DNA of 64,000 nt from a virus, in the IMG/VR virus record IMGVR_UViG_3300021197_001521, positions 20,236 to 84,235 of that record; one strand, given 5' to 3'. The notes beneath the pieces were generated by a model that worked only from the letters and a program-made list of their open reading frames with translations, ran no database searches and was not told where the DNA came from. Numbering within the stretch: position 1 is the stretch's first letter; each line of letters begins with the position of its first letter. Position numbers and translations under genes: made by a program. Below are positions 26,235-62,791 of this stretch, piece by piece.

Positions 26235-26242
26235 TTTTCTTC

Positions 26243-27867: not shown

Positions 27868-27868
27868 A

Positions 27869-31434: not shown

Positions 31435-31435
31435 T

Positions 31436-34896: not shown

Positions 34897-34897
34897 A

Positions 34898-38082: not shown

Positions 38083-38096
38083 TAGGCTCTCCCGAC

Positions 38097-38972: not shown

Positions 38973-39732
38973 TTTTTAATGGATAGTTTAAAATAAAACT
39001 CATCCCCCCTGAATTAAACTCTCCATGAAAACCGAAAGACTCATAACTTATTAGCATGTTTCTTGCAAAATATCTATACGGCGTTGGGTGTTCTACAGAA
39101 AACTGTGCTGCTAACTCAGGCGGGGCAAATCTTATACCTGCTTGTGTCATTCTGTCATAGTTAAATACGCATATGTTTAAGTCTTCATTCTTATGTTCCC
39201 ACCCAAGTTTGGCAGACTCTTCTACAAATTTTCTAGTTCGCAAAGAGAATCCACCATTACCCACAACATTTGGAATATTATCTATTCTTCCAGCAACCAT
39301 GTCCGTTGCTTGGATTATATGCATGGGCCAAGGCGCGCCTATGTAGTCGTAGTCTAAATACTGGTCTGTCCACTTATTACTATCTATAATAGTAGAATCA
39401 TGCTGAACATTCAAGCAAAAATCATCTGTAATGTATTTATTTGTTTGTTGAACAAAAGATTCACAGAAACCTATTCTGTTTTCATCATCGTTTTGTAGGT
39501 TGTCATTAAGGTCTACTTTCATGTCGTAGACTTCTATGTTATTCTTGTTGATGATTTTTTCAAACAAAGACAACTGAGTTTTACTACTATCTGTAATTAA
39601 GACACTACGCTTAAAATCTACCTGATCCATAGCAATCAACATAGATCTAAGAGATTTTTCTACATGTTCTGTACCCCAGCAAAATGTAAATACTGTTACG
39701 TCTGGTAGTTGTAACTTATTTCCAATAGTCAT
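38965..39732 (-). CDS. DUF5672-type glycosyltransferase-like protein
   Basis: A 255-residue protein. After a GT-A-type start (VTVFTFCWGTEHVEKSLRSM) it shows DYIGAPWP, VGNGGFSLRTRKF, a following ED-containing helix, then FAPPELAAQFSVE and FGFHGEF. These are the signature pieces of the DUF5672 family, whose members occur beside glycosyltransferases in polysaccharide loci and are thought to be GT-A enzymes. It overlaps the epimerase gene by 17 bases. Confidence 0.75.
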   Translation of the reverse strand: MTIGNKLQLPDVTVFTFCWGTEHVEKSLRSMLIAMDQVDFKRSVLITDSSKTQLSLFEKIINKNNIEVYDMKVDLNDNLQNDDENRIGFCESFVQQTNKYITDDFCLNVQHDSTIIDSNKWTDQYLDYDYIGAPWPMHIIQATDMVAGRIDNIPNVVGNGGFSLRTRKFVEESAKLGWEHKNEDLNICVFNYDRMTQAGIRFAPPELAAQFSVEHPTPYRYFARNMLISYESFGFHGEFNSGGMSFILNYPLKNE

Positions 39733-40735
39733 AAATACCCTTCGTTGTTTCGTAATCCATTACCTTTTGTTCGCGTTTAGGTTGGGTCATCGCCCACCTG
39801 AACATCTCATCAATTGTTTCCTCTAGGTTGGTGTCGTCGCTAAAGCCTAACATTTCTTTTGCTTTTGCGTGATCGCAATGCGCATGTTTAACTTCGTGCC
39901 GACCTTCTACATGTTTTTTATCTGCTTGAAAACCATTTTTTAAAGCTACACGCTGCACTGTATCTGCCAGTTGGTTTATTGAGTATGCTTTGTCTGCTCC
40001 AATGTTAAAAATTTCTTTATCGTGACTATCAATCAGTTTTTCAAAAGGTTCCATGTAGTATTTGATATCAGAGAACGCGCGAGTCTGCTCTCCGTCTCCG
40101 TAGATTAACATAGGTTCGCCAGCAAGTATACGTCTAATAAAAATACCTACAACGTTACGATATTTATCCCAAATGTTTTGGTATATACCTACGACATTGT
40201 GTGGACGAACAATATTATAACGAAGACCGTGTTGATCGTGTGCAACCTTTAGGTCCATCTCTACGGTATATTTTGCAATACCATATGGATCAATTGGCAC
40301 TGGTCCCATCGTTTCTGTAAATGGAGGATGATGATTACCGTAAACTGCCATAGAACTGGTAAAGATCATTTTTACGTCATGATTGATACACGCATTGATT
40401 AGGTTAACACTTGCTAAAACATTATTTGTATAATTATAATGTCTGATAAATGGCGACAACCCTTCTGCTGCATAAGCAGCAAAATGATAACACGCTACAA
40501 TGTCACGGTTAGGGTCAGCAAAAATATGCTCTAATGCCCTTGGAGTCCCTTCGCTTTTACTGAGGTGTAGCGGCCAAAACTCAAACTGCTCTAACGTGGT
40601 TTCTTTGGGAAGATAATCTTCATAACTGCCGCTAAGATCATCAATACCTATAACCTTGTAACCCTTTTTGATTAGGTGACGAGTTAGGTGCGAACCAAGC
40701 AGTCCTGCGCATCCAGTTATCACAACTTCTTTCAT
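39716..40735 (-). CDS. NAD-dependent sugar epimerase, GalE-like
   Basis: A 339-residue extended SDR enzyme. It has the NAD motif TGCAGLLGSHL (about 7-17), GIDDLSG (dinucleotide specificity), HFAAYAAEGLS, FTSSMAVYG and YGIAK with the catalytic Tyr and Lys. RPHNVVG and GDGEQTRAFSDI are on the sugar-nucleotide side, and NIGADKAYSI is near the C-terminus. The pattern is that of UDP-glucose/UDP-GlcNAc 4-epimerases and close relatives, not GDP-mannose dehydratase. It could supply UDP-galactose-type donors to the cluster, for example to the GT7-like enzyme and as acceptor residue for the GT11 enzyme. Confidence 0.82.
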   Translation of the reverse strand: MKEVVITGCAGLLGSHLTRHLIKKGYKVIGIDDLSGSYEDYLPKETTLEQFEFWPLHLSKSEGTPRALEHIFADPNRDIVACYHFAAYAAEGLSPFIRHYNYTNNVLASVNLINACINHDVKMIFTSSMAVYGNHHPPFTETMGPVPIDPYGIAKYTVEMDLKVAHDQHGLRYNIVRPHNVVGIYQNIWDKYRNVVGIFIRRILAGEPMLIYGDGEQTRAFSDIKYYMEPFEKLIDSHDKEIFNIGADKAYSINQLADTVQRVALKNGFQADKKHVEGRHEVKHAHCDHAKAKEMLGFSDDTNLEETIDEMFRWAMTQPKREQKVMDYETTKGIYDYWK

Positions 40736-42799: not shown

Positions 42800-44371
42800 T
42801 TATATTTCGTGTATTTTATTAATAATAAACGAACCGTCTTTTTCTACCTCTCCGCAGAATAATAAGTTAAGACCTTCATCTAGTATATATTTAGTCTTCT
42901 CTGTAGTCTCTGGAAAGACCACCACATTATCAATAGAGCAAGTTTCATCTTCCAGTGTCAGGAAACACATATCTTTACCTTTGCTCTTGCCTTTTTTGCA
43001 TTTATATTTCTGCAATCTACTAACATTTGCTACTATACAGATATCTTTACCGTGTTTTCCATTTAGTATTTCTTTACACGAAGTATTTGAGTGCGATGTG
43101 TCAGACGCTTCTACTTTAGACAGCGAGACAGGGCATCCCAAGAATTTCTTTTCTTGTTCCACAATCCATTCTGGATCATCCGATAGGTCATAGGGAGGGT
43201 TCTCTATAAAGAACATTTCGTTCTCAATGATTTGCTTCCTATCGACCTTACTAGTTCCACCGCCTTCCTTTTTTGTGGGCGCTAGATCTTTAAACGCATC
43301 ATAAAGATTGTCCCATTTGCGTACAGGATAATTTATTGTTAACCATTTAAGTTCTGCTTTTGTTAAGTTTTTAAATATCAAATATTCATAAAGAGCTTTA
43401 TTCCTAGTAACTCCAATAGACTTGGTGGAAAAGAATCCGACAGAACATAGTGCTTTAAATGCAGTTGCATTAATTTTAGGAGATAAGTATACAAGAACAT
43501 CCATCCAGTTAAATTCTTTTGGTTTCTTGTTTATGTCTTTACAGGTTTCTGATACTGCCTTTATGACTTTATCGCCATTAACACCCGTTAGCGACTTAAT
43601 GTCTTTAAGACCGAAGTACAAGTTGTTCTTATAAACTCCAAAAGTCTTGTTAAATAAAGTCAAATTAGGAATTTTTACTTCTATGTCAAATAACTTTGCT
43701 TCAGATACAAGTTCGTAAACTTCTTGATGTGGGTCTTGCTTTTCATTCGCATAGGTTAGGTATGACAAAAAGAACTCTTTAGTGTGATTCGCTTTGTACC
43801 AAGCGCTCCTATACGAGTTTTCTGCGTAGCATATAGCGTGGGATTTATTAAACGAATAGCGTGATGACTTTTCAATCCAACCAAAGATTTCTTCGGCAGT
43901 CTCTACGTCTACAATACCCTGCTCTGTGCATCCCTGCAAGAAGTCTTCCCTGACTTTAGCCATAAGGTCTGCTTTCTTCTTACCAATCGCCTTACGAAGC
44001 ACATCTGCTTCTTGTAAGTTGAAACCAGCAAGTTCTTGAGCGATACGCATAGACTGTTCTTGGTAAATCAATACACCTTTAGTGGATTGCAAAACATCTG
44101 TTAGCGATTCATGCAGATACTTAATTACATCCAGACCGCTTTTCCTGTCAACGTAATGTTGAGTCATAGACTTTCCATCCGTTATCGCTTTTAGCGATCC
44201 CGGTCTAATCAAAGCAATTAACGCCGCAAGTTCTTCAAGATTGGTGGGATGTAGTCTTTTAGACCAAGCGCGCCCAAGATTACTCTCTAACTGAAAGACA
44301 CCTTTTGTTCTGCCGTCCTTAAAAAGATCCCATGTTTTTCCGTCTTCGTAACTAAACGTAAGTGTTGCCAT
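42800..44371 (-). CDS. dnaE: DNA polymerase III alpha, C-terminal half (split DnaE)
   Basis: The ATG at 44,371 follows AAAAGG; an upstream TTG at 44,389 is less likely. The 523-residue product begins inside a DnaE: DGRTKGVFQLES, then HPTNLEELAALIALIRPGSL, KGVLIYQEQSMRIAQELAGF followed by NLQEADVLRKAIGKKK, and RYSFNKSHAICYAE are the DnaE fingers region. The rest is a weaker C-terminal region ending in an OB-fold-type segment (SRLQKYKCKKGKSKGKDMCF). The catalytic aspartates are in the other half. No intein is visible at the N-terminus. It should pair with the N-half to make one polymerase. Confidence 0.88.
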   Translation of the reverse strand: MATLTFSYEDGKTWDLFKDGRTKGVFQLESNLGRAWSKRLHPTNLEELAALIALIRPGSLKAITDGKSMTQHYVDRKSGLDVIKYLHESLTDVLQSTKGVLIYQEQSMRIAQELAGFNLQEADVLRKAIGKKKADLMAKVREDFLQGCTEQGIVDVETAEEIFGWIEKSSRYSFNKSHAICYAENSYRSAWYKANHTKEFFLSYLTYANEKQDPHQEVYELVSEAKLFDIEVKIPNLTLFNKTFGVYKNNLYFGLKDIKSLTGVNGDKVIKAVSETCKDINKKPKEFNWMDVLVYLSPKINATAFKALCSVGFFSTKSIGVTRNKALYEYLIFKNLTKAELKWLTINYPVRKWDNLYDAFKDLAPTKKEGGGTSKVDRKQIIENEMFFIENPPYDLSDDPEWIVEQEKKFLGCPVSLSKVEASDTSHSNTSCKEILNGKHGKDICIVANVSRLQKYKCKKGKSKGKDMCFLTLEDETCSIDNVVVFPETTEKTKYILDEGLNLLFCGEVEKDGSFIINKIHEI

Positions 44372-45029
44372 TTGCAAATGCCTTTTCAAGTTTCAAGTTT
44401 CTGTAGACGGCACGATGCGTCTTCATAAATTTAATCATCAAGTTTGCGGTATCTTTGACATCTTGCAGAGCGTCATGGGCATTCTCGGTATCCATACCCA
44501 TCCTGTCTCTAATAGCGTCCATACTCCTAGATTTTACACTAGGATCTCCCTCTGTCCACATATAATAGTTGTCCATCATGTCGATTTTATGGATTTGATG
44601 AAACAACTTCTGTCTCTGTCTTTGGTCGTCCCAAGGTCCGTATTCTTTACAAAGTCTATCTACAATAATCATATCGTATCCTAAAATATTATACCCAGCA
44701 GCAATCGGAGCGAAGAACGAAGTTCCTTTCCAGTTATACTTATCTACAAAAGCGCAGAACTTTTTCCAGACTGCTTTCGGTTTAGGTGCTTTTGCTATCT
44801 CTTCTCTTGTTTTACCTGTTACTTTTAAAGCACCGTCTTCAATTGGACCAAGACCTTTCTTTGTCGCTTTTTCGTCATTGGTTTCTGCCCATATTTCGCT
44901 ATTGAACTCACCTTTTAGTCTAAAGTTTCTGCCGTCCAAGGCTATTGCTGCCAACTGAGTGGGTTGACATGTTACTGGATTTCTACCACCTGTCTCAAAG
45001 TCAAAAACAATTATATCACGGTTCGACAT
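44352..45029 (-). CDS. DnaQ-like 3'-5' exonuclease (DEDDh) between polymerase halves
   Basis: A 225-residue protein. Motif I is VFDFETGG (about residues 8-15), motif II AAGYNILGYD (about 110-119) and motif III ENAHDALQDVKDTANL (about 185-200), with the His and Asp of DEDDh exonucleases. It probably proofreads the phage DNA polymerase. Its start overlaps the end of the polymerase N-half by 14 bases, and its end overlaps the start of the C-half by 20, so the three are transcribed and probably translated together. Confidence 0.9.
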   Translation of the reverse strand: MSNRDIIVFDFETGGRNPVTCQPTQLAAIALDGRNFRLKGEFNSEIWAETNDEKATKKGLGPIEDGALKVTGKTREEIAKAPKPKAVWKKFCAFVDKYNWKGTSFFAPIAAGYNILGYDMIIVDRLCKEYGPWDDQRQRQKLFHQIHKIDMMDNYYMWTEGDPSVKSRSMDAIRDRMGMDTENAHDALQDVKDTANLMIKFMKTHRAVYRNLKLEKAFANGNTYV

Positions 45030-46683
45030 TATTTTCCTTCATTTTTACGGAATCTGGATTGGCTACTATGTAGTCAATATACATAAGTTTATCAAGCAGG
45101 TTAATTGCCAGAACGTCAAACTTAACGTGACCAAGTGCCTCTAAGTCTGCCATCTCTAGTCCTGCTATCTTTTCATCACTACTTTTTGAGTTTACCATAG
45201 GGCAAACTTCTGATAGTTTGTTTGCTGATATAACAACACCCGCAGCATGTTTGCCTTGAGTTTTCAGCGTACCCTCTATCTTGATCGCTTGTTCAAAATA
45301 TTCTGCATAGTCACCTTCTAAGTAACCCTTCTCATTTATGTGACAATAATCATACAAGTCTTGTTCGTTGTTTTGCAACGCCCACCTAATAATAGATCTG
45401 TCTTCCTCGTCCATCTGTGATAGTTGATCAGAGATAGCCGCTTCGTCTGGAATATATTTTGTAATCTCGTTCATCACGCTAAACCCACACGCTTCGTTTA
45501 CACGTAGGATTTCTTTGATTGCGCTACGCCCCTGTAGTCTACCGAACGTCACCATCTGACTAACATTGCCGTGTCCGTATTTATCTTTGATATACGATAT
45601 GATTTCGTCTCTTTTCTTTCCGGGAATATCTATGTCGATATCTGGAAGTGACACATTATCTTTAGTGTTTCTACCACTATTATAGAATCGTTCAAACAAT
45701 AAGTCAAATTCAATCGGGTCAATCTGAGTGATTCCTATCAAATAAGATATCAAACACCCAGCAGCAGAACCGCGACCCGGACCTACCATCCAGCCTTGAT
45801 CTATCGCATACTTAATAATATCACGAACAATAAGAAAGTAACCAAACAAATCTGCTTCTTCAATAACTTCAAATTCTTTCCTGAATCTGTCGCCATACTT
45901 TTGTCTACCTTCTTCATCTGTGATTTTTTCTGCGAGTAGATCTTTCCACCCTTTTCTAGCAAGTGTCCTTAAATAATCTTTCTCTGATTCTCCGTTGGGA
46001 GTGTCAAACTTAGGAAGAACAGGTTTGCTTAGAATGTTATAATCTTCGCACTGATCATATATCTCATCAAGACTCTGTGTTCCTGCTGGATCTTCAAGCA
46101 TAGCTTCTGTTGCTCCAGTTTTATCTGGAACAAAAAAGTGAGAAAAGTCAAAAAACTTTTTATTAGGAAAGTCTTCTTTGTTTTTGAACTTCTTTCTAAG
46201 TTTAGGAAGAGTAGTCTTCATTTCAGAGCAAAGCAAAATCCTGTGTAGATGAGCGTCTTCTGACTCTGTGTAGTGCAAGTCTTGAAAACATCTACTTTTC
46301 TCGTACCAACCTTTTTTAATTGGCGAATTCGCAGCAGAGTCTGCTAGAACAATCAAGTTTCCTTTGTTGCAAATTTCAGACAGGTCGCTTGCATTGTAAT
46401 CTCCGTTTTCATCCAACAGAGAAACAATCTTGATTAGGTCAAACCAACCTTTTTCGTTTTTCGCAAATAGCGTGAAGCTATCGAACGAACAACCTATAAT
46501 TGGTTTTATGTCGTTAGCAACACATGCCTGATAGAAAGCCACAGCGCCAGAGATTGTTTTGTAGTCAGCGATGCCGCAAGCGCGGAATCCGTTGTCTTTA
46601 CATTTCTTGGCGAGTTCTTTGGGTTTAGAGAACCCTTTTAGTAGCGAGTAGTGTGTGTAATTACAGAGTGGGAACCAAGTCAT
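45016..46683 (-). CDS. dnaE: DNA polymerase III alpha, N-terminal half (split DnaE)
   Basis: The ATG at 46,683 follows AAAGGAG at a good distance. The product has 555 residues. The N-terminal PHP domain begins NYTHYSLLKGFSKPKELAKK and has CGIADYK and IKPIIGC. The polymerase part shows VGPGRGSAAGCLISYLIG, PDIDIDIPG (about 347-355, two catalytic Asp), VTFGRLQGRSAI and, near the end, LGHVKFDVLA (about 520, third catalytic Asp). It stops shortly after, where a normal DnaE would continue through a loop to the GVFQLES region; that part is in the separate gene at 42.8-44.4 kb. A sigma70-like promoter lies just upstream. Confidence 0.9.
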   Translation of the reverse strand: MTWFPLCNYTHYSLLKGFSKPKELAKKCKDNGFRACGIADYKTISGAVAFYQACVANDIKPIIGCSFDSFTLFAKNEKGWFDLIKIVSLLDENGDYNASDLSEICNKGNLIVLADSAANSPIKKGWYEKSRCFQDLHYTESEDAHLHRILLCSEMKTTLPKLRKKFKNKEDFPNKKFFDFSHFFVPDKTGATEAMLEDPAGTQSLDEIYDQCEDYNILSKPVLPKFDTPNGESEKDYLRTLARKGWKDLLAEKITDEEGRQKYGDRFRKEFEVIEEADLFGYFLIVRDIIKYAIDQGWMVGPGRGSAAGCLISYLIGITQIDPIEFDLLFERFYNSGRNTKDNVSLPDIDIDIPGKKRDEIISYIKDKYGHGNVSQMVTFGRLQGRSAIKEILRVNEACGFSVMNEITKYIPDEAAISDQLSQMDEEDRSIIRWALQNNEQDLYDYCHINEKGYLEGDYAEYFEQAIKIEGTLKTQGKHAAGVVISANKLSEVCPMVNSKSSDEKIAGLEMADLEALGHVKFDVLAINLLDKLMYIDYIVANPDSVKMKENNVEP

Positions 46684-46713
46684 CAATATCTCCTTTCAAT
46701 ATGGTTTCAATGT

Positions 46714-46754: not shown

Positions 46755-47798
46755 TTATAACACAATTTCTTGATTAGGAAGAATAATAGTTTTTCCTGAA
46801 AAGTACTTGATGTACTTTGCTTCTTCTTCAGAACTTTCTACAAAAAAATCGCAATTAAATTTTTTAAATACCTCCGACTTGTACCTGCCTACCACTTCGT
46901 GATGATTTTTATCTCTTTGATTTTCCTGTTCCGTGGGAAACATTATCAAGTGTTCATAATTAAATCCATGCTTTTTCAACCAAAATTCTGTTTCTTCTCT
47001 AAATTTTTCCAGTCTTCCGGTGACTAGCGCCTTTGCTTTAAAAAGTTTTGGTATTCTTTTTTGGTATGGTTCTATCTTTTTTATGTATTTTACGTAGAGT
47101 TTCTCATTCTTACACACATCTAAGGGTACATCATTACAGAAAATACCGTCGATATCAAAACATGTGGTCCCACAGTAACCAGAGTTGAACAAGTTCCACT
47201 CCAATATGTGAGGTAGTTCTAATTGTTTAGAATGATAGTCAATCAAACTAGAAGCAACTTCTGTTGAGAATATAGAAGCAAACTTAATATTTTTGCCAAA
47301 TGTTTTCCTCATAGCTTTAACTGTCGTTCCACTACAACTTGTGTCGTCTACAAACAGTAGTTTTTTTAATTTATCGGAACTGCTATATTTTTTATAGTAT
47401 TTCATCCTGCTCCCTCCGTAGTCTGAGGCATAGGTTAAAATAACTATTTCTTTTTCATGTATAGAAAATAAAGGTTTATTTATATGGGTTGCGATTATTG
47501 ACGCAGGAACCATTCCAGATCTAGGTACACCAACTATGCCGTCAAACTTGCTGGCGATTTCACAAAGATCAAGACTTGTATCAATTAAATTTTTGTTTGT
47601 TATATACTTTATAGATGAGTTTTCTTGAATTTTTAGCACTTCTTTTTGTTCTACAAAATTCTTATTGTTAAGTTTTCTGTAATTTTCTCTTTTTTGTTGT
47701 GTTGATTCTTTACACCACTTTATTCCAGCAGCGTCCATCTGCCTGTGATATATTTCACAAAATCCAGCGCCTTCGCAATGACACTTATCAAGTCTCAT
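46755..47798 (-). CDS. Phosphoribosyltransferase-HAD fusion with Cys-rich N-terminus
   Basis: A 347-residue protein in three parts. Residues 1-45 are a Cys module, CHCEGAG-F-C then KWC and TQQKRENY. About 60-190 form a PRTase domain (GVPRSGMVPASII and LLFVDDTSCSGTTVKAM, the PRPP-binding loop with two acidic residues). About 210-347 form a HAD-like domain (CFDIDGIFCNDV and ALVTGRLEKFREETEFWLKK). The order suggests salvage or activation of a base or nucleotide plus a phosphatase. The N-terminal Cys module recurs in the glycosyltransferase gene two genes upstream. It overlaps the sulfotransferase-like gene by ATGA and is followed by a promoter. Confidence 0.8.
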   Translation of the reverse strand: MRLDKCHCEGAGFCEIYHRQMDAAGIKWCKESTQQKRENYRKLNNKNFVEQKEVLKIQENSSIKYITNKNLIDTSLDLCEIASKFDGIVGVPRSGMVPASIIATHINKPLFSIHEKEIVILTYASDYGGSRMKYYKKYSSSDKLKKLLFVDDTSCSGTTVKAMRKTFGKNIKFASIFSTEVASSLIDYHSKQLELPHILEWNLFNSGYCGTTCFDIDGIFCNDVPLDVCKNEKLYVKYIKKIEPYQKRIPKLFKAKALVTGRLEKFREETEFWLKKHGFNYEHLIMFPTEQENQRDKNHHEVVGRYKSEVFKKFNCDFFVESSEEEAKYIKYFSGKTIILPNQEIVL

Positions 47799-48328
47799 TT
47801 TTCATATTCTCCATTCTTAAAATCTTCATAGTGAAGATAGTATATCTGCTCTTTTTGAATTTCCGTAAATTCTACACCCGTCTCTATGCTTTTGTTGAAT
47901 TGTGGCAAGAAATCTATTTTTATATCTAAACTTTCAAAATCTTCTACTAAATTTTCTACTTTTACTAAGTGGTCATATTGATATAATCTCGTTACGGGAA
48001 AACAACAAGCACATTTGGAGTTCTCAAAGAACCATTCGTCAAAGTTTATTTCGTGGAAGTACTTTGAATGCTTCCACATGCTATTAACTCTATTGTAAGG
48101 GTTTCTTACTGGCAGTATTACTTCGTATCCTTCATCTTTAAAATGATCGCTAACTAAGTTGTTGTGCTTGTGTTCAAAAGATCTACACTCTGTGCTATCT
48201 CCTGTAATTGTAGGGTGCGCTCCATAGAATTTGTCCCACCCCATTTCAGAAAATATATTTTCTAGCGTTGTACTGTAATTTTTAAATGGTGTGGAAATTA
48301 TTAATTTTCTTTTTTTGTTTACCAGCAT
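47795..48328 (-). CDS. Sulfotransferase-like protein
   Basis: A 177-residue protein. KLIISTPFKNYSTTLENIFS (about 8-27) sits where PAPS-dependent sulfotransferases have their 5'-phosphosulfate loop, and VILPVRNPYNRVNSMWKHS (about 71-89) matches the RNPxxRxxS 3'-phosphate loop. HYEDF near the C-terminus fits the usual YEDL strand. It is shorter than standard members and has a Cys-Ala-Cys-Cys patch in the middle. It could sulfate a carbohydrate. Neighbours are a GT8-like and a PRTase-HAD protein. Confidence 0.7.
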   Translation of the reverse strand: MLVNKKRKLIISTPFKNYSTTLENIFSEMGWDKFYGAHPTITGDSTECRSFEHKHNNLVSDHFKDEGYEVILPVRNPYNRVNSMWKHSKYFHEINFDEWFFENSKCACCFPVTRLYQYDHLVKVENLVEDFESLDIKIDFLPQFNKSIETGVEFTEIQKEQIYYLHYEDFKNGEYEK

Positions 48329-49215
48329 AATTCTAAATCCCTTTCCATGTTTTCTTCTCTGTTCTTGTCTCCAGCGTAATGTATAAAGAAAGCATCTTTT
48401 TTCATCGTGTCAAAATCTTTCATCCAAGATTGACAGTTAAACTCTGTTGGCAAGTCCTCTGTTTTGTATTGATAATAGAGACAGTTAGACTCAATCTGAA
48501 ATTGTTCGTCCCAGTGTGTTTGCCTGTAGTCGTAATTGATTGGTTCCCATAAATTTTCATGACACTTTGAACTTAGGACAACTCCTGTGTTATAAACTTT
48601 CTTTGTATTTGCCAGTCTATCTATTGTCTTCTCGTCATCAAATCTACACGATAACAGTTTCTTCTTGTCTTTTATCCCCCATCGCGGAGTCAAAAAGTCT
48701 CTATCATTGTGCATTGAAACGCAGTCTTCATCTATAATATCAAAAAGATTAGGACTGTTTCTTTTTACTAGAATGTCTATATCTAAGAATAAAATTCTTT
48801 CATACGCAGATGAATACTTTCTAATTCTAAACTTTTCGTTTCCCCAGTATTTCTGAGTTTGACCTTTTAACAGAATAAAGTCTGCTCCGACCTTTTGAGA
48901 ATAGTCCTGCATTAACGGACCAGAGAATTTATAAAGCGACCCAATCGGTCCAGCGCCAACCGTTATTATAAGATTTTTACTTCTTGGGTTAGGTTCTGGG
49001 TCAGACTTTACTTCTTCAAAGAAATATTGAGAATAGTTTTTACGCTCAACACTTTTGCTTGCAACGCTAACAGGGTTGCTTTTTAGATAGTAACCTTTTC
49101 TTTTCTGTTCCGTAGTTCCTTGACACCACTTCCAGTTTGGTGGCGAGTGTCCCATAACCTTGCCAAAGACGGGGCAGAACCCCGCCTCATGGCAAGTGCA
49201 TCTCGATAGATCCAT
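48319..49215 (-). CDS. GT8-like glycosyltransferase with Cys-rich N-terminus
   Basis: A 298-residue protein. Residues 1-45 are a Cys module: CTCHEAGFC, then WKWC and TEQKRKGYY, very like that of the PRTase-HAD protein. The body is a GT-A domain: IITVGAGP, KYSSAYERILFLDIDILVKR with DID as metal motif (about 145), then VYNTGVVLSSKCHENLW, the usual GT8-type acceptor-side strand. Near the C-terminus W-D-E-Q and HYAGDKN may complete the site. The ATG at 49,215 starts at the Cys module, which argues that it is part of the protein. Confidence 0.75.
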   Translation of the reverse strand: MDLSRCTCHEAGFCPVFGKVMGHSPPNWKWCQGTTEQKRKGYYLKSNPVSVASKSVERKNYSQYFFEEVKSDPEPNPRSKNLIITVGAGPIGSLYKFSGPLMQDYSQKVGADFILLKGQTQKYWGNEKFRIRKYSSAYERILFLDIDILVKRNSPNLFDIIDEDCVSMHNDRDFLTPRWGIKDKKKLLSCRFDDEKTIDRLANTKKVYNTGVVLSSKCHENLWEPINYDYRQTHWDEQFQIESNCLYYQYKTEDLPTEFNCQSWMKDFDTMKKDAFFIHYAGDKNREENMERDLELCW

Positions 49216-49484: not shown

Positions 49485-50156
49485 TCACCACGCTCTACAT
49501 GACCAGTACCTTGCTTTCCATCTAGGTCCGGGATTATCGCAATTATGTCTTGCTCTAAAGTTCTTACGACGACCCGGAATATTCTTTTTAATTTTCATAT
49601 TTGGATCGCCAAATCTTACGATTACCACTTTCCCTGACCCATTCTTTACATACACCGCGCTTTTCTTTGGACCTCCGGGAGTCTTGAAGGGTTTGCCAAG
49701 CTTTACTTTTCGACCCTGATACTCTGCTGACTCTGTGTAATCAAGCTCTGCTTTAGCAGGAATAAGTGTTCTTCCTTCTTTTTTATAGATACCTTTTTGT
49801 TCATACTCATAAACCTGACCCGTTTTAGGATCTTTGTATTTATATTTAGACTGTGATTTCTTTAGTTGCTCTTGGGTGGGTCTACCCTCTTTTACAGTCT
49901 TGGCGGGTTTATAATTTTTACCTTCTCGCTCTTTTTTTCTGCGAATATTTTCCCAGAGACCGGGACGATCCGCCGCCCAGTTCCACTCTTCTGATTCTTC
50001 TCCTAAATCTTCATATTCTGCTTCCGTTGGGACATAGAAATTTTCTTCTGTAATTTCTTCTGTCCATCCATGTTCATCCATGTCAAAACCTAAGTTTTTG
50101 TTGTAATGAAAGGATTGATCCATGTCAAAAACGTAATTTTTTCTTTGATCAGACAT
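49485..50156 (-). CDS. Conserved phage-type protein with FRARH...KARYWSC C-terminal domain
   Basis: A 223-residue protein. The N-terminal half is acidic and Tyr/Trp/Glu-rich, then Lys/Gln-rich. The C-terminal 80 residues carry GKPFKTPGGPKKSAVYVKN, then RFGDPNMKIKKNIP and FRARHNCDNPGPRWKARYWS followed by C. This C-terminal signature recurs in tailed phages and some larger viruses, often near head-assembly genes, but I cannot name its function. The ATG follows the PAP2 stop (TAATG-like overlap). It is the only possible virion-related gene in the - strand block. Confidence 0.6.
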   Translation of the reverse strand: MSDQRKNYVFDMDQSFHYNKNLGFDMDEHGWTEEITEENFYVPTEAEYEDLGEESEEWNWAADRPGLWENIRRKKEREGKNYKPAKTVKEGRPTQEQLKKSQSKYKYKDPKTGQVYEYEQKGIYKKEGRTLIPAKAELDYTESAEYQGRKVKLGKPFKTPGGPKKSAVYVKNGSGKVVIVRFGDPNMKIKKNIPGRRKNFRARHNCDNPGPRWKARYWSCRAW

Positions 50157-50836
50157 TATCTGCTCCTATAAGGTTGTAAATTTGGAAATAATTTATATCT
50201 AACGTCTTGCCAAATAGCGCCACTGATTACCATAGACGCTTCATTGTCAGATGGATAATGAACACCCTGTAAACATCTTGCTAGTCCAGAAAGACCTATC
50301 GTCTTGAAAAATTCAGACGAGCGATGGGGGTACATATCTGCAAAAAGATATGCTGCCATTGCCGCATACACAGTATGACCAGACGGATAAGCTGGCGTTT
50401 TATGTGATTTTGTTTCTATTACATTTATTCTATAATCTAATAAATCTCCTAATTGTTTAGGTCTAGGTCTATTAAATTTATTTTTAAGATTCGTAATAAT
50501 TGGATCTACTACTTTGTAGAGTTTTTTAAAATCTTTTTCAGGCATGGGTTGATTCATGCTATTAAAAATTGGTTTGTATAAATCTAGCGGTTCTTTATCA
50601 ACTAAGTGTACTAAATTTTTTTCTTCATAACTTAAATTAGCTGTGAGCGACTGCAAATACTCTAATTCTTTCTTGGTTTCTTCTGATGTATTTTTGGGAG
50701 GTTCTGGTAAAACGCCCTCCCAGTCTATTGTTATTATACTAGAAACCTTTTTATCTTTCAAGTTCTTTTTGTAAACAACAGAATCTAAATTAGAAGATAA
50801 TGACTTATTAAGTTCTGCTATATATTTAATATCCAT
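50156..50836 (-). CDS. PAP2-family phosphatase (vanadium haloperoxidase-like fold)
   Basis: A 226-residue protein with all three PAP2 motifs: K118-x6-R125-P126, P-S-G-H at 151-154, and R187-x5-H193-x3-D197. These bind phosphate and form the phosphohistidine. The N-terminal 110 residues are helical and unassigned. I see no signal peptide and no convincing membrane segment, unlike lipid-phosphate phosphatases, so it is either cytoplasmic or released by lysis. It could act on phosphorylated metabolites or lipids. It follows the two Tat-exported DUF1501 genes with 1-base overlaps. Confidence 0.85.
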   Translation of the reverse strand: MDIKYIAELNKSLSSNLDSVVYKKNLKDKKVSSIITIDWEGVLPEPPKNTSEETKKELEYLQSLTANLSYEEKNLVHLVDKEPLDLYKPIFNSMNQPMPEKDFKKLYKVVDPIITNLKNKFNRPRPKQLGDLLDYRINVIETKSHKTPAYPSGHTVYAAMAAYLFADMYPHRSSEFFKTIGLSGLARCLQGVHYPSDNEASMVISGAIWQDVRYKLFPNLQPYRSR

Positions 50837-52068
50837 TATACCAAACCTTCTATTATCTTGCCGCCATTAGCAATTTTCATTGGTCGTCCATTTTTTGCTG
50901 TATAATTTTTTTCTGTACTGATACCAAGCGATTTACAAATAGTAATCATTAAGTCTTCTGACGAGTAAATTAAATCGCTGGTTATTTCTTTTCCATCGCT
51001 GCTTGTCGAACCGATTGCTTGACCGCCTTTAATCAATCCTCCAGAAACAAATGCAGACCAGCACCTTGCCCAGTGGTCGCGACCAGCATTTTGATTAATT
51101 TTTGGAGTTCTGCCAAACTCTCCCATCATAACGATAGCAGTGTTGTCCCACATATCAAGACGTTTTAAGTCCAGCATAAGAGTAGAAACTACTTTGTCTA
51201 GTTCTGGAAGTTTGGTTGATAGCGTTTCGTGTGTGTTTTGATGTAAATCCCAACCACCAAAACCAAGTTCTACAAAAGGCACACCTGTTTGCAGTAGTCT
51301 TCTTGCCATTAAAGCGCCTTTCCCAAATCCCGTTTCTCCATAGGCATCAACTACATCCTTGGGTTCTCCTATTGGTTTTAGCGCTTTCATCTGTGGACTT
51401 GTGTTAAGTCTAAATGTTTGCTGCAACATTTTCATGTGACTTTTTGCCATATCGCTATTGCTTCTTTTTACAAAACCTGTTTCTATAGCAGCAAGTGCTT
51501 GCATCCTTTCGTTATCTACAGAATCGCCAAGGTTTCTAACTTGACCATTTGAACTTACAACAAAGGGATTCCAAGCAGAACCCAGAAACCCGCCACCAAT
51601 ACTTCCTGTACTAATTGAAAAAAATGGCGGTATTTCTAGGTAGTCCCTGTCTTGAGACAGTTCGTAAGATATAACAGAACCCATTGATGGGTGTTTCATG
51701 TTTGGGTTTGGTTTGAAACCCGTATGCATGTAGTAACGACCTCGCATATGGTCTGCTTCTCTTGTTGCCATACTTCTAACAATAGAAAAATCTTTTCCTT
51801 GTTTTGCAAGTTCTGGCATAAGCTCGTTGATTTGGAAGTCACCAGTTGTGCTAATTGGTCTTGATGGACCGCCAGTAGGAGCGCCAAACTTTACGTCCCA
51901 CATGTCAATAGTTGGAGGGCCACCATTAAGCCAAATAAGAATTGCACCCTTTTCATTCTTTGCCAAATCTTTACGACTGTCAATGATTTTTTGACCAAAC
52001 GCAGTTGACGCTACGGAGACAGAGGCTAACCCCCCAGCGTGTTGCAAAAAGTGTCGTCTGTTAATCAT
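50836..52068 (-). CDS. Tat-exported DUF1501 protein 2
   Basis: A 410-residue protein. The N-terminus has a twin-arginine signal (NRRHFLQHAGGLASVSVAST, Arg4-Arg5), then AFG just before the likely cleavage site. The body is DUF1501, an alkaline-phosphatase-superfamily member: ILIWLNGGPP, MRGRYYMHTGFKPNP, GWDLHQNTHETLS (about 267), GEFGRTPKINQNAGRDHW (about 302) and SGGLIKGGQAIG. Family members are thought to be exported hydrolases or sulfatase-like proteins; biochemical function is not established. It overlaps its paralogue upstream (ATGA). Confidence 0.9.
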   Translation of the reverse strand: MINRRHFLQHAGGLASVSVASTAFGQKIIDSRKDLAKNEKGAILIWLNGGPPTIDMWDVKFGAPTGGPSRPISTTGDFQINELMPELAKQGKDFSIVRSMATREADHMRGRYYMHTGFKPNPNMKHPSMGSVISYELSQDRDYLEIPPFFSISTGSIGGGFLGSAWNPFVVSSNGQVRNLGDSVDNERMQALAAIETGFVKRSNSDMAKSHMKMLQQTFRLNTSPQMKALKPIGEPKDVVDAYGETGFGKGALMARRLLQTGVPFVELGFGGWDLHQNTHETLSTKLPELDKVVSTLMLDLKRLDMWDNTAIVMMGEFGRTPKINQNAGRDHWARCWSAFVSGGLIKGGQAIGSTSSDGKEITSDLIYSSEDLMITICKSLGISTEKNYTAKNGRPMKIANGGKIIEGLV

Positions 52069-53339
52069 GCTATAATCTCCTGAATTACTTCTCCAAAGTC
52101 CACTATTTCAATAGGTCTATCACCGGGAGCCATTAATTCTTTGTCGGCATTAATTCCCATTTGATGATAAATAGTTGTCGCCCAATGTGGAATAGAAACT
52201 GGGTTATCTTCTGGTTCTGTGCCAGTCGCATCAGTTCTTCCATAAGTCATACCACCTTTAATTCCACCACCAGCAAGAATAGAACTAAACACCTTCGGGT
52301 AATGGTCACGTCCAGCATCTTTATTTATTTTAGGAGTTCTTCCAAACTCTGACACTACACAAACCAAGGTAGATTCCAAAAGTCCTCTTTCGGTCAAGTC
52401 TTGGATTAGTGCAGCAAACGCTTGGTCAAACGGTGGGACTTGCGAATCTATACCGCCAAAGATATTTTGGTGCATGTCCCAACTGCCGTAGGTCATAGAT
52501 ACAAATCTAGCACCCGCCTCAACCAATCTTCTGGACATAAGCATCCTTGCGCCAGCAGTATTGCGTCCATACCTATCGCGTACTTCTGGTTTTTCTTTTT
52601 CTATGTCAAAAGCGTCTTGTGCTTTTTGATCTCCAACAAGATCATATGCTTTTTCATAAAAAGTATTCATAGCTTTTACAGCATCAGAGTTTACCTTTTC
52701 TGTCATATTTTTATTTACAATTTCCAACAGTTTTTTACGTTTTGCAAACTGTTCGTCGGTAACATTGAAAGACAGGTCTCTAACTTTGAATTTATCAGAA
52801 GCAGGATCAGAACCCAAAGAAAACGGAGCGTATGCGTTGCTTAAATATCCGGTTCCTGCAAACTCGTTGGGTTTTTCCGGCACACAAATATAAGCAGGAA
52901 GATTATCCCTAGAACCGAACTCATGAGACACAACAGAACCCATAGAAGGATACTGGAGTGCAGGACTAGGTTTGTAACCTGTGAAAATACTATTTGTTCC
53001 TCGTTCGTGTGCAGCCTCTCCATGAGTCATGCTCCTGATAATTGTTAATTTATCCATGATCTGCGCGGTTTTTGTAAACCTTTCATTGATCTGGATTCCG
53101 TCAACATTGGTGTTTATCGCTTTCATAGAACCGCGATACTCTAGAGGAGCTACAGTTTTTGGGTCGAGCGTCTCCTGAGCAGCCATTCCACCCGGAAGAT
53201 ATATAAAAATCATGCTTTTTGCTTGACCTTCAACGCTTTCGTAGTGTTTTTGTTCACCAAAAGCGTACTGCGTTCCGGCAGCGGCAAAAAGACTTGTTTG
53301 CAAGAATGCCCTACGACCAATATGAATATGATTAAACAT
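52065..53339 (-). CDS. Tat-exported DUF1501 protein 1
   Basis: A 424-residue paralogue of the next gene. It has a twin-arginine signal (GRRAFLQTSLFAAAG, Arg9-Arg10) and the DUF1501 signature: IFIYLPGGMA, THGEAAHERG, YPSMGSVVSHEFG, GSWDMHQNIFGG (about 284), SEFGRTPKINKDAGRDHYPK (about 330) and AGGGIKGGMTYGRT. GAGG spaced before the ATG supports the start. It would be exported folded to the periplasm, or in Planctomycetota to the equivalent paryphoplasm. DUF1501 genes are unusual in phages and typical of Planctomycetota. Possible roles are surface modification or release; neither is shown. Confidence 0.9.
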   Translation of the reverse strand: MFNHIHIGRRAFLQTSLFAAAGTQYAFGEQKHYESVEGQAKSMIFIYLPGGMAAQETLDPKTVAPLEYRGSMKAINTNVDGIQINERFTKTAQIMDKLTIIRSMTHGEAAHERGTNSIFTGYKPSPALQYPSMGSVVSHEFGSRDNLPAYICVPEKPNEFAGTGYLSNAYAPFSLGSDPASDKFKVRDLSFNVTDEQFAKRKKLLEIVNKNMTEKVNSDAVKAMNTFYEKAYDLVGDQKAQDAFDIEKEKPEVRDRYGRNTAGARMLMSRRLVEAGARFVSMTYGSWDMHQNIFGGIDSQVPPFDQAFAALIQDLTERGLLESTLVCVVSEFGRTPKINKDAGRDHYPKVFSSILAGGGIKGGMTYGRTDATGTEPEDNPVSIPHWATTIYHQMGINADKELMAPGDRPIEIVDFGEVIQEIIA

Positions 53340-53345
53340 TTTTCC

Positions 53346-54368
53346 TCACCCCGGTGCTTCGTAATAACCTATTGAAAACCCTTCATTAGTACAATCTTTG
53401 ACAGTCTTTTCTAGACCGTCAGTTTTTAATCTCTCCCCTATATGTATACACATTGGAGTGTCTGTTTCCGGCCAATTATTCTTATAAAAGTGACAGAGCT
53501 TTGTACATTTCCAATGACTCCTGTCCTCTCGCAACGGTTTAGGAGAGACATTTGCCTTTATATCTTCAAATCTATTTTTCAACATGCCAAGAAATTTATC
53601 TTGATCTTCTTTATCAAAACACATACTAAACGGACCACCATCCTTAACAAAAAAGATAGTCATAATTGCCTGTTTGTAATCTGGGTAAAGTTTAGATATC
53701 GCATAATTATATAGCAATAGTTGAGCATCTGTCGTAAGTTTTTTGTAGTCTTTTTCTTGTCCTGTTGCCCAATCCAGTCTACGTCCCGTCTTCCAGTCGA
53801 TGACTTCTATTGTGTCATCGTCTATTTTGGTCACAAGGTCAATCGTGCCTTTAATCGCTAATCTACCCTCAATAACTTCGCCGTTTGGCATTTTGTACTC
53901 ATACTTTGCCCAATCTTCTTCAATCGGAATGTCGAAGTGGGGTTCTGGATCAACTACGTCTCTTAACCTTGGATCAAATTGACCTTCGTTATAGTTTAGT
54001 GTATCCCAACTCAGTTTAGAAACTTGTTTTCTATCTGCTGGCATCCACTTGTGCTTAGAATCTTTCTCGTAGCATTTAATACTAAGATCTACTAATTCAT
54101 TAACAAGTTCATCTGTTAAAAGTCTATCCTTATGTATCCTGACTTTTCCAGCAGCATCATCTTCTACAACTAAATATTTTTTTCTAGGGTTATCCTGTTG
54201 AAACTTTTTCAATCCAGCAAATATTTCCATGACCTTATGGACCATAGTTCCAAGTTCTGCTTTTTTTCCACTGTCTGACCTGTGACCAAGTACATAGGTC
54301 AAAAAGTACTGCATTTGGCAGTAATCGTAACCATTATAACTTGATGACCTTATGTATGTCACTATCAT
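53346..54368 (-). CDS. Cas4/RecB-like PD-(D/E)xK nuclease
   Basis: A 340-residue protein. The N-terminus has a Cys in GYDYC (Cys17) and GTMVHKVMEIF (His44), which is the usual RecB/Cas4 start. GTIDLV at about 176 and VIDWKTG at about 190 are the catalytic D and D-x-K, and QLLLYNYAI is motif QxxxY. Near the C-terminus CTKLC and later PMC add three cysteines, so four Cys could bind a [4Fe-4S] cluster as in Cas4 and AddB. Likely role: end processing in recombination or replication. The ATG overlaps the dNMP kinase stop by 1 base. Confidence 0.85.
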   Translation of the reverse strand: MIVTYIRSSSYNGYDYCQMQYFLTYVLGHRSDSGKKAELGTMVHKVMEIFAGLKKFQQDNPRKKYLVVEDDAAGKVRIHKDRLLTDELVNELVDLSIKCYEKDSKHKWMPADRKQVSKLSWDTLNYNEGQFDPRLRDVVDPEPHFDIPIEEDWAKYEYKMPNGEVIEGRLAIKGTIDLVTKIDDDTIEVIDWKTGRRLDWATGQEKDYKKLTTDAQLLLYNYAISKLYPDYKQAIMTIFFVKDGGPFSMCFDKEDQDKFLGMLKNRFEDIKANVSPKPLREDRSHWKCTKLCHFYKNNWPETDTPMCIHIGERLKTDGLEKTVKDCTNEGFSIGYYEAPG

Positions 54369-56299: not shown

Positions 56300-56520
56300 C
56301 TAGGATCTCTATCAAGATGGTTTACATATTTTACAAATACTTCTTCTTGAAGGTCGTAGTGTAGCTTTTGTCCTTCTTCTCTGACTAACCAGTATGAAGA
56401 TTCTGTCATTAGTCCACTGTCGTACACTTTAGTAACTTTGTATATAGACTGCACTTTTGGAAGCGGGATTATATCTCCATGAGAAGGTCCACCGTTAAAT
56501 TCTGCTTCGTATTTACTCAT
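56296..56520 (-). CDS. Small hypothetical protein after dnaB
   Basis: The ATG at 56,520 follows GAGGA at 5 bases and is preferred to a TTG at 56,535. The product has 74 residues, beginning MSKYEAEFNGGPSHGDII, beta-type and charged, with no membrane segment. I do not recognise it. It overlaps dnaB by 8 bases and the small membrane-protein gene by ATGA. Confidence 0.6.
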   Translation of the reverse strand: MSKYEAEFNGGPSHGDIIPLPKVQSIYKVTKVYDSGLMTESSYWLVREEGQKLHYDLQEEVFVKYVNHLDRDPR

Positions 56521-57958
56521 TGGGTTCCTCTTCAAAAGGTAGTTCTGCGCCCTCTATGGCATCATCAGTTCCAGATTTTATAAACTCATCCCTCGTTCTC
56601 AGCTCAGATAGTTTAGCGTAATCACCATCCATTTTTAGATTTATATAATTCCCATCATGCATTCCGGGTCCATGTCTAGAGACAATGGGTACAAGTTTTC
56701 TATTGCCTGCCTTTGGACCGTCCTCTGCGAGTTCCTCTGCTGACTTTTCTTTGAAGATAGAGAATGATGTACACAACCAAATAAGTCTGTCAGAACCGCT
56801 TACAGCGTCCGTAGATTCTTTTGTGATACCATCTCTGTTCAACTGAACGAACGCAAGACAAGCAAAGTCATACTTGACTGCAAGATTATGAAGGTTTGTA
56901 ATCTGAAATCCTAACGCTTGATACTCCTGAATGTTTCCAGATATACCGGCAGATGACATTAGTTTTAGATAATCATAAACAACTACGCACTCGTTTGTTC
57001 TTCCATTCTCGTCTGTTCCGACTTCTTGAATTACCCATCGTTTGATATGGTTTAAGATATTCTCAAATGGCGCTCCTGCTACACTCACATATGTATATGG
57101 TATGTCTTTTATTTCTTCCATTGCTGATTTGACGGCGATAAACTTTTCTTCATCTTGTGCAAATTTTCCCGTAGATATTTCACTAATAGGAACTCCACTC
57201 ATGCTAGATAAGATTCTGTTTAGGTGATCTTCTTTGCTCATCTCTGTATCTAGCATCAGAACGGGTACGCCCTTTCTTGCTACAGATACGGCAACATTAT
57301 CACCGAATACAGACTTGCCAACTTTAGGTCTAGCGGAAACTAGGTCTACACATTTGCGTCTAAGACCACCACCAATGGCGGCATCGTACCTATCAAACCC
57401 GCTAGGCACACCGATCTGGTCACACTTGTTTTCGATAAGAAAGTCAACATATTCTTCTAGTCCTTCACCTATCTTTTCAGGTTTATCTCTTGTGTCGTCA
57501 TCTTGAAGAAACTCTGTAATAGGATTTTCTACAATACCGATGATGTCATCAATATCCTCGTCACCTTTTATTTCTTCTATGTCTCTACCAATTTTACTGG
57601 CAAGACTCCTAATCTTTCTAGCAAACTCAAACTTTTTTATCTGTGCGGCAAAATGAATTACATTGTCCTTCTTTACTGGAAACTCCATCAAAGAATTTAT
57701 GTATTCAAGCTCTTGTTTAGTTTGTATGGTTTCAGAAAAACCCAACTGATCCGCAGCAGAAAGCAATGCTGGTAGGTCAACTTGAGTTTCTTTTAATAGT
57801 ATTTTCTCAATACATTTATATATCAACTGATTATTCTGATGACAAAAACTATTGTAGTCAATCAGATCGCTTATCTCAACGTATGACTCTAGACCGTAAG
57901 TAAAGAGACCAGCAAGAACCGCTCTCTCTGCGCCTAAGTCCAACAACTTAGATTCCAT
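56513..57958 (-). CDS. dnaB: DnaB-type replicative helicase
   Basis: The ATG at 57,958 overlaps the upstream stop (TAATG), with a GGGGG sequence ahead of it; a GTG at 57,973 is the alternative. The 481 residues match normal DnaB length. An N-terminal helical domain (about 1-100) begins ERAVLAGLF, with an intact linker region. The RecA-like domain has VSARPKVGKSVF (Walker A, about 207-218), MLDTEMSKEDHLNRIL and VVYDYLKLM (Walker B strand). It ends in an acidic tail. Unwinds DNA for the phage replisome. No intein is seen. Confidence 0.9.
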   Translation of the reverse strand: MESKLLDLGAERAVLAGLFTYGLESYVEISDLIDYNSFCHQNNQLIYKCIEKILLKETQVDLPALLSAADQLGFSETIQTKQELEYINSLMEFPVKKDNVIHFAAQIKKFEFARKIRSLASKIGRDIEEIKGDEDIDDIIGIVENPITEFLQDDDTRDKPEKIGEGLEEYVDFLIENKCDQIGVPSGFDRYDAAIGGGLRRKCVDLVSARPKVGKSVFGDNVAVSVARKGVPVLMLDTEMSKEDHLNRILSSMSGVPISEISTGKFAQDEEKFIAVKSAMEEIKDIPYTYVSVAGAPFENILNHIKRWVIQEVGTDENGRTNECVVVYDYLKLMSSAGISGNIQEYQALGFQITNLHNLAVKYDFACLAFVQLNRDGITKESTDAVSGSDRLIWLCTSFSIFKEKSAEELAEDGPKAGNRKLVPIVSRHGPGMHDGNYINLKMDGDYAKLSELRTRDEFIKSGTDDAIEGAELPFEEEPNE

Positions 57959-58356
57959 TATTTGCCCCCGCACCGATTACATCGGTGGTATTCTCCATAT
58001 ACCAAATTTGGATTCTCGTAATAAACTTTACCACACACGGAGCATTCTAGTTTTACCTTCTTTGCTTTGCTTCTATTCCTTGTGGCTTTCTTTCTGCTTC
58101 CTTCCCATTCTTCTTCGCCTTCTGGTAGTTGCCATTCTCCAGTATCTTCCCAGCGATTATTTCTCGCTCTCACGGGTGTTCTCCCTCTTTCTAAATCGGG
58201 TTTAGTTTTAGTAACACGAAAATCTTCGTCTACATCAGAAGAGACCATCTCTTCTTGTTCTTCTGGTTTTTTAGTATTAACCAAAGATTTTACCAGTTCT
58301 GCTTTTTGTTCATCTGTCAAAGACTCTAAAAGAGTTTTTACAATATCATCACTCAT
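57958..58356 (-). CDS. Acidic protein with C-terminal zinc ribbon
   Basis: A 132-residue protein. The first 60 residues are acidic, then a basic stretch (RKKATRNRSKAKK) precedes a zinc ribbon made from CSVC and CNRC, about 20 residues apart. It probably binds nucleic acid or a replication partner. It lies between an unknown gene and dnaB, which it overlaps by 1 base. Confidence 0.65.
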   Translation of the reverse strand: MSDDIVKTLLESLTDEQKAELVKSLVNTKKPEEQEEMVSSDVDEDFRVTKTKPDLERGRTPVRARNNRWEDTGEWQLPEGEEEWEGSRKKATRNRSKAKKVKLECSVCGKVYYENPNLVYGEYHRCNRCGGK

Positions 58357-61776: not shown

Positions 61777-62126
61777 CTTCCCTCCATTATGTATTTTGTT
61801 TTTTGATCGTTAGACATCTTATTAATATCTTTCATGGATTTTGTTGTATGTTCATGATGCCACGGTTTTTCGACTTTTGGTTGTGACTCGCGCTTCATAA
61901 CTTCCATTTCATTGATTTTGTTTTTATTTTTCTTACTGTTTCTGTCTGCAACGCTACCTATAGTATCGCTTCCTGCCATAAAACTGTGAAGACCACCAGT
62001 GACTACCCTGTAAAGAGAATCCTTACCACAGACATCGCACCTCTTTAACTCTGGGTCTGTAACCTTTTGGAACACGTCACTAACTTCTGCTCCACAATCT
62101 CTACATTCATAATCGTATATTGGCAT
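61773..62126 (-). CDS. FmdB-like zinc ribbon protein
   Basis: A 117-residue protein. MPIYDYECRDCGAEVSDVFQ and KRCDVCGKDSLYRVV form the two CxxC pairs of the FmdB/CxxC putative regulator family. After residue 45 a Ser/Lys/Asn-rich tail follows. GGAG before ATG supports the start. Role unknown; zinc-binding and possibly nucleic-acid binding. Confidence 0.8.
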   Translation of the reverse strand: MPIYDYECRDCGAEVSDVFQKVTDPELKRCDVCGKDSLYRVVTGGLHSFMAGSDTIGSVADRNSKKNKNKINEMEVMKRESQPKVEKPWHHEHTTKSMKDINKMSNDQKTKYIMEGR

Positions 62127-62791
62127 TAGTTCTCCAACCTGTTTAATATTTGTCCTAGTATTCCATTTCTTTGAATGTCACTGTAACCCAATCTACATAT
62201 ACCTACACCTTCAAGGTCTTGTAGTTTTTCGATAATTTCTTCAAGTCCACTTTTTCTTTGTAGGTCAGTTTGTCTGATGTCACCATTGATAATTACTTTA
62301 CTTCCCTGTCCCATGCGCGTTATAAACATTTTAATCTGTTCCCAAGTGCAGTTCTGCGCTTCGTCCAATATCATATATGTATTGTGAAATGTAGAACCTC
62401 TCATAACTTCTAATGGTTGATATTTTATCCTACCTTCGTTGTAGTACATACCATAGTATGCACGACCCAGAAAGTGTCTAAAATTTTCTTGCATTGGAAG
62501 AAGGTAGGGTGCAATCTTTTCTAGTAAGTCTCCGGGTAAACTGCCAAGATCCTTACCTGTACAAACCAGTGGTCTTGTTATAAGCACTTGATCTATTTCT
62601 TCACGGTGTAGATGCTCAGAAGCAATTCCAGATGCTATAAATGATTTACCACAACCCGAAGGACCAGTGCAAAATATAACATCGTTTTCTATAATCGCTC
62701 TAATGTAATCTTTTTGGTTAGAAGTTTTTGCCTCTACCACTTTTACTTTTTGCGGGGATACGTTTTCTTTTCTGGTTTTTCTCTTAGTCAT
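62126..62791 (-). CDS. phoH: PhoH-like P-loop ATPase
   Basis: A 221-residue protein with GPSGCGKSF (Walker A, 43-51), ITRPLVCTGKDLGSLPGDLL, MYYNEGRIKYQPLEVMRGST and MILDEAQNCTWEQIKMFITR (Walker B), then RMGQGSKVIINGD and RKSGL. These are the PhoH marks. PhoH-like proteins are widespread in marine phages. Some contain an RNA-nuclease domain, but here only the ATPase core is present. It overlaps the FmdB gene by 1 base. Confidence 0.92.
   Translation of the reverse strand: MTKRKTRKENVSPQKVKVVEAKTSNQKDYIRAIIENDVIFCTGPSGCGKSFIASGIASEHLHREEIDQVLITRPLVCTGKDLGSLPGDLLEKIAPYLLPMQENFRHFLGRAYYGMYYNEGRIKYQPLEVMRGSTFHNTYMILDEAQNCTWEQIKMFITRMGQGSKVIINGDIRQTDLQRKSGLEEIIEKLQDLEGVGICRLGYSDIQRNGILGQILNRLEN

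Follow-up and report, generated by a model that had tools for sequence, protein, structure and literature searches.

Putatively exported DUF1501 proteins, evidently of planctomycete origin, in a cargo slot of an uncultured tailed-phage lineage

Phages carrying phoA, pstS and phoD have been described (PMC5083919, PMC10987575), and gene clusters encoding DUF1501 proteins, which are biochemically uncharacterised, have been associated with the intracellular membranes of bacteria of the Planctomycetes-Verrucomicrobia-Chlamydiae (PVC) group (PMC4452313). Here we describe two DUF1501 genes, DUFa and DUFb, and a neighbouring PAP2 phosphatase gene in IMG/VR virus record IMGVR_UViG_3300021197_001521; the window is the 64,000-base stretch that we analysed, bases 20236-84235 of this 84,235-base record (contig G000). 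On balance we lean, if only slightly, towards the reading that these genes mark a slot for exported cargo, located among the replication genes of a large lineage of uncultured tailed phages infecting Planctomycetota, a group for which few phages are known to us, and that the DUF1501 proteins modify a host envelope process. The genes at the centre of this reading are:

52065-53339, minus strand: DUFb, 424 residues, DUF1501 protein with a twin-arginine translocation (Tat) signal (Pfam); ortholog of a planctomycete DUF1501 protein whose gene adjoins a PPC-domain gene
50836-52068, minus strand: DUFa, 410 residues, DUF1501 protein with a Tat signal (Pfam); orthologous to another planctomycete DUF1501 protein, encoded at an unlinked locus
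50156-50836, minus strand: PAP2, 226 residues, soluble, class A acid-phosphatase-like, no signal peptide (Pfam, profile match, hydropathy)

Scores against the Pfam DUF1501 model (PF07394; cut-off 27) were 372 bits for DUFb and 298 bits for DUFa, with positions 1-390 and 2-389 of the 390-position model covered, placing both proteins in the family; PAP2 scored 50 bits against its own Pfam model (cut-off 27.2). Consistent with a first-pass annotation made from the sequence alone, the locus thus holds two full-length DUF1501 proteins and an intact PAP2, and the EFGRTPKIN...AGRDH signature is present in both DUFa and DUFb. The twin-arginine signals proposed in that annotation are also found: the N-termini carry RR motifs (IGRRAFLQ and NRRHFLQ) followed by a stretch with a hydrophobic maximum of 1.25-1.41, as expected of Tat substrates judged by motif and hydrophobic stretch rather than by a trained predictor. 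No other protein of the 84-kb contig has a twin-arginine motif. Among phage DUF1501 proteins, RR is present at each of the 64 distinct N-termini; a script recognised 63 of them, having chosen a wrong upstream start for the last. Because each protein keeps its signal, Tat export after folding in the cytoplasm is expected, and we infer that both proteins act in the periplasm. In one related phage, the protein at L321:6925-7623 combines a Tat-like signal nearly identical to that of the adjacent DUFa with a pseudopilin-type N_methyl motif, and looks like the product of a recombined signal. The annotation further took overlaps of 1-4 bases to couple the three genes. The overlaps themselves are there, with DUFa starting within 4 shared bases (ATGA) and PAP2 within one (TAATG); DUFb has a GAGG-type ribosome site, and PAP2 also shares one base with the next gene (49485-50156). 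However, 43 of 71 same-strand neighbours in the contig overlap, so that overlap is poor evidence of coupling, and we rejected it as the mark of a module.

Close relatives of DUFa and DUFb occur at 24 and 33 loci, respectively, on IMG/VR contigs, mostly as an overlapping DUFb-DUFa pair and often with PAP2 nearby. A related contig, G001 (162,690 bases), is colinear with that of the window and carries head genes along with one for the large terminase subunit. We anchored a slot count independently on the gene for a DnaB-type helicase, using the 20 of 80 contigs with more than 5.5 kb downstream, and 19 of these 20 carry one to three DUF1501 genes, nearly always in the same slot. The usual order is DnaB, primase, deoxynucleoside monophosphate kinase, PD-(D/E)XK nuclease, slot and DNA polymerase III alpha, and in the window the corresponding markers and the companion gene are:

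56513-57973, minus strand: DnaB-type helicase, the lineage marker for slot counts (alignment)
53346-54368, minus strand: PD-(D/E)XK nuclease, upstream border of the cargo slot (Pfam, PHROG, synteny)
49485-50156, minus strand: conserved companion gene (PHROG 7595), usually adjoining PAP2 in the slot (PHROG, synteny)
45016-46686, minus strand: N-terminal part of DNA polymerase III alpha, downstream border of the slot (PHROG 405, synteny)

Four or more types of DUF1501 gene (a, b, b' and c) occupy the slot, in combinations that vary among related phages; in L297 and L301 a DUF1501 gene lies upstream rather than in the slot. This is a large uncultured lineage of tailed phages in which DUF1501 genes are nearly universal, not a local oddity. 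The genes are also under strong selection: between G000 and G001, the ratio of nonsynonymous to synonymous substitution rates (dN/dS) is 0.022 for DUFb, which is very strongly purifying, and 0.034 for DUFa, as compared with 0.116 for PAP2 and 0.018 for DnaB. DUFb is 71% identical between G000 and the distant G013, whereas DnaB is 50% identical; either phage-to-phage exchange or strong constraint may explain this difference.

Further exported-looking cargo is found in the slots of relatives, including a thioredoxin (L273) and a trypsin-like protein (L272), both secreted, as well as a family of small secreted proteins that share a VSPDRR...TFNY motif (L249:12348-12653, L254:12110-12460, L294:9486-9779 and L321:6548-6889). 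The domain of one of these small proteins recurs in 35 of 41 Pirellulaceae genomes; the planctomycete proteins that have it include secreted ones and VWA/TPR proteins of about 1350 residues. Such sharing forms a second link to Planctomycetota and suggests a slot that serves the envelope.

Evidently, the DUF1501 genes are of planctomycete origin. The first-pass annotation had described the family as greatly expanded in Planctomycetota, and we indeed find 23-124 strong DUF1501 matches per planctomycete genome, of which the phage proteins best match two particular ones. We searched the genomes of 84,980 bacterial and archaeal species for relatives of DUFb. The 80 best are planctomycete proteins at 59-66% identity, except for those from one metagenome-assembled genome (MAG) labelled Verrucomicrobiia, an unnamed bacterium and two contigs assigned to "SAR202". 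The latter, VFHP01000007.1 and VFHP01000013.1 of the MAG "SAR202 cluster bacterium OSU_TB57" (152,655 and 64,029 bases; L221-L232), are themselves phage contigs of the DUF1501 lineage. VFHP01000007.1 (G019:C7) matches G001 in 85 of 209 proteins, is colinear with it over most of its length and has the same slot. Although these top genome hits suggested SAR202 (Chloroflexota) as host, we therefore rejected them as host evidence; these contigs would mislead homology-based host prediction. DUFa is about 50-56% identical to its planctomycete orthologs. In trees, the phage proteins group with the clades of their host orthologs rather than with other DUF1501 paralogs (98-100% support), in agreement with the nearest cellular relatives and with the Planctomycetota link that the annotation had proposed to check by phylogeny. 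Its refuting case was a long-standing phage lineage lacking such links; the lineage is long-standing, but the link is present.

Phage DUFb proteins form one group inside the host ortholog clade (87/95 support), and most phage DUFa proteins form one group beside theirs (100/100). A second DUFa group, from other phages such as L317 and L304, falls inside Rhodopirellula-type sequences (99/91). A second, independent capture of DUFa is favoured by bootstrap, with one origin in 0 of 200 trees, although the approximately unbiased (AU) test does not reject one origin (p 0.059 and 0.14). In host genomes, a PPC-domain gene and a gene encoding Big_2 and DUF1549 domains typically come after the DUFb ortholog. 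The DUFa ortholog lies in a separate place, preceded by a gene that, from partial sequence, looks DUF1549/1553-like. Since DUFa and DUFb derive from two unlinked host loci, the pair was assembled by phages, and we rejected duplication of one DUF1501 gene into two within phages because DUFa and DUFb cluster with different host orthologs. At the DNA level, the 19.7-kb stretch of the window with DUFa and DUFb has matches in 228 of 241 Pirellulaceae genomes, lying in DUFa or DUFb among the matches listed, and a neighbouring 10.6-kb stretch without these genes has matches in 22 of the 241, mostly in the PhoH gene. Together, these comparisons make Planctomycetota the very probable hosts of the lineage.

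What the exported proteins would do is suggested by predicted structure. AlphaFold (AF2) models of DUFb and DUFa have mean predicted local distance difference test (pLDDT) scores of 80 and 81, and Foldseek searches of the PDB with them recovered the alkaline-phosphatase/sulfatase superfamily (best E 3e-8 and 3e-7, probability 1.00), with LtaS, polysaccharide sulfatases and choline sulfatases as the best matches. Sequence profiles gave the same hint weakly. Kinship with this superfamily is thus likely at the level of the modelled fold.

PAP2 appears to be a different matter. Its profile match is to soluble class A acid phosphatases (PDB 7f18/7f17 and PhoN; E 3e-17), and its catalytic motifs are complete (K118-x6-R125P, PSGH, R187-x5-H193-x3-D197) and invariant in 9 phage homologs. 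By hydropathy, neither a signal peptide nor a membrane helix was seen in 6 phage homologs, so PAP2 probably acts in the cytoplasm rather than as a periplasmic enzyme. The annotation's placement of PAP2 in an exported module consequently did not hold, and PAP2 was rejected as an exported partner. Its position in the slot differs among relatives, it is less constrained, as its dN/dS indicates, and in L292 it occurs without a DUF1501 gene in the available stretch. No PAP2 homolog was found in 199 planctomycete genomes at E <= 1e-8, in a search that had no positive control.

In the envelope-modifying reading, the one to three DUF1501 genes of related phages, each derived from a particular planctomycete ortholog, have products that would fold in the cytoplasm before export by the host Tat machinery. 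Once in the periplasm, they would most likely replace, boost or compete with the host copies, whose partner genes (PPC, DUF1549) the phages do not carry; that phage proteins replace or compete with host DUF1501 proteins in envelope processing is our guess. The altered envelope process would benefit infection, conceivably because phosphate or sulfate esters of envelope glycans or lipids are cleaved or transferred, a reaction and benefit that we likewise guess from fold and context. PAP2 would act on its own, as a cytosolic phosphatase whose gene often accompanies the DUF1501 genes. The association of DUF1501 clusters with PVC intracellular membranes (PMC4452313) fits an envelope role and is not decisive. 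A bolder version, which we put forward only tentatively, is that the slot supplies a swappable set of subunits that serve as decoys or replacements in envelope machinery specific to planctomycetes. Paralogs taken from different host loci would then combine with the other exported cargo to reprogram the host periplasm in a way that is not known from other phages.

Several observations weigh against an envelope-modifying function. TM-scores of the Foldseek matches are only about 0.4; the metal-binding "DH" of sulfatases aligns with the "EF" of EFGRT; and the helix at the nucleophile position, after the second long strand, opens with an invariant His (His107/111) rather than Thr, Ser or Cys. Neither a conserved Ser, Thr or Cys nucleophile nor the canonical DH ligands of the superfamily were seen in the DUF1501 alignment or models. 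Because DH reads EF and an invariant His occupies the nucleophile site, catalysis by DUFa and DUFb may be absent or unusual. We know of no function or host substrate for DUF1501 proteins. As to origin and host, a host-sister placement of phage DUFb is not rejected (AU p 0.42), leaving the direction of transfer less secure, and no CRISPR spacers against the 19.7 and 10.6 kb of phage DNA were recognised in the 241 Pirellulaceae genomes, in an insensitive search that scored 2 candidates per genome.

The main rival is nutrient scavenging, in which the DUF1501 proteins would free phosphate or sulfate from periplasmic organic esters during infection, as has been proposed for phosphorus-acquisition genes of cyanophages, PAP2 and PhoH sharing the phosphorus theme. 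We regard it as unlikely, although the alkaline-phosphatase/sulfatase fold, the class A acid-phosphatase type of PAP2, the PhoH gene at 62126-62791 and the phages with phoA, pstS or phoD cited above all count in its favour. PAP2 looks cytosolic, EF stands in the place of DH, and PhoH is common in phages; moreover, the conserved host orthologs are linked to PPC and DUF1549 genes, not to phosphate genes, and several different paralogs per phage exceed what a phosphatase needs. Rather improbable is superinfection exclusion or receptor masking, whereby a changed surface glycan or protein would block competing phages and paralog turnover would track receptor competition. The variable slot combinations among related phages and a nearby sugar/glycosyltransferase-type region that varies between G000 and G001 would suit this idea, but the very strong purifying selection on DUFb is unlike that of fast-changing exclusion proteins, which are usually small membrane proteins or lipoproteins. 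That the proteins are virion or lysis components merely in transit through the envelope is very improbable: the putative Tat export would bring them to the site of lysis and egress, but the genes sit with replication genes on the strand opposite to the window's large structural-type genes, a location that disfavours such a part, and the host orthologs function outside phage biology.

Other features of the window are recorded here. Genes of about 250-360 residues fill a large block at 24264-40735; they diverge strongly between G000 and G001 and, by their start sequences, are partly of sugar-nucleotide and glycosyltransferase type. Three genes at 46755-49215 have weak matches to phosphoribosyltransferase, sulfotransferase and glycosyltransferase family 8, the first and third with similar Cys-rich starts. 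DNA polymerase III alpha (42800-46686) is divided between two open reading frames (ORFs), 45016-46686 and 42800-44389, which flank an exonuclease-subunit-like ORF at 44352-45029. A PhoH-like gene occupies 62126-62791, and a 5387-residue ORF (G000:15550-31713) extends across the window's left edge and precedes other very large ORFs of 595-1652 residues. Transfer RNA and Rfam scans of the 64-kb window were empty.

Consistent with the first-pass view that DUF1501 is little known in phages, the 50,697 records of named phages gave one weak match, none of the PHROG families matched DUF1501, and BFVD holds one uncultured-phage protein annotated as such; in the literature consulted, we found nothing linking DUF1501 to planctomycete phages. 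The BFVD protein, A0A6J5M742 of an uncultured Caudovirales phage, places DUF1501 in a tailed phage, but is 13% identical in the Foldseek alignment. The closest known relative, the planctomycete PPC-adjacent DUF1501 protein (PF07394), is, like DUFb, a full-length match to the family, is 60-66% identical to it and shares the Tat-type signal, EFGRT and GRDH, whereas the phage copy lacks the PPC and DUF1549 partner genes, overlaps a second, unlinked paralog and has a G+C content of 0.41, the base composition of the phage, as opposed to 0.60 in one planctomycete ortholog. Members of the alkaline phosphatase superfamily (sulfatases, LtaS, ENPP) share the predicted fold, at about 11% identity and with the departures noted above. 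Class A non-specific acid phosphatases (PhoN; 7f17, 7f18) resemble PAP2 in profile and catalytic motifs, but known PhoN-type enzymes are periplasmic and the phage protein has no signal peptide. Since the lineage almost always keeps one to three copies with a Tat signal, DUF1501 genes may mark the host of many uncultured phages. They also make DUF1501 function testable, by asking which pair of paralogs is important during infection and for what reason. Like cyanophage phoA and pstS and soil-phage phoD, these are host-type genes, some with extracytoplasmic products, presumably expressed during infection; unlike them, they belong to another protein family, are near-universal in their lineage and occur as one to three paralogs. 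Host-derived genes for exported proteins were already known in phages, and what is new, as far as we have checked, is the DUF1501 family, the host group, the near-universality and the multi-paralog slot, which together offer a planctomycete counterpart to the cyanophage host-type genes for exported proteins.

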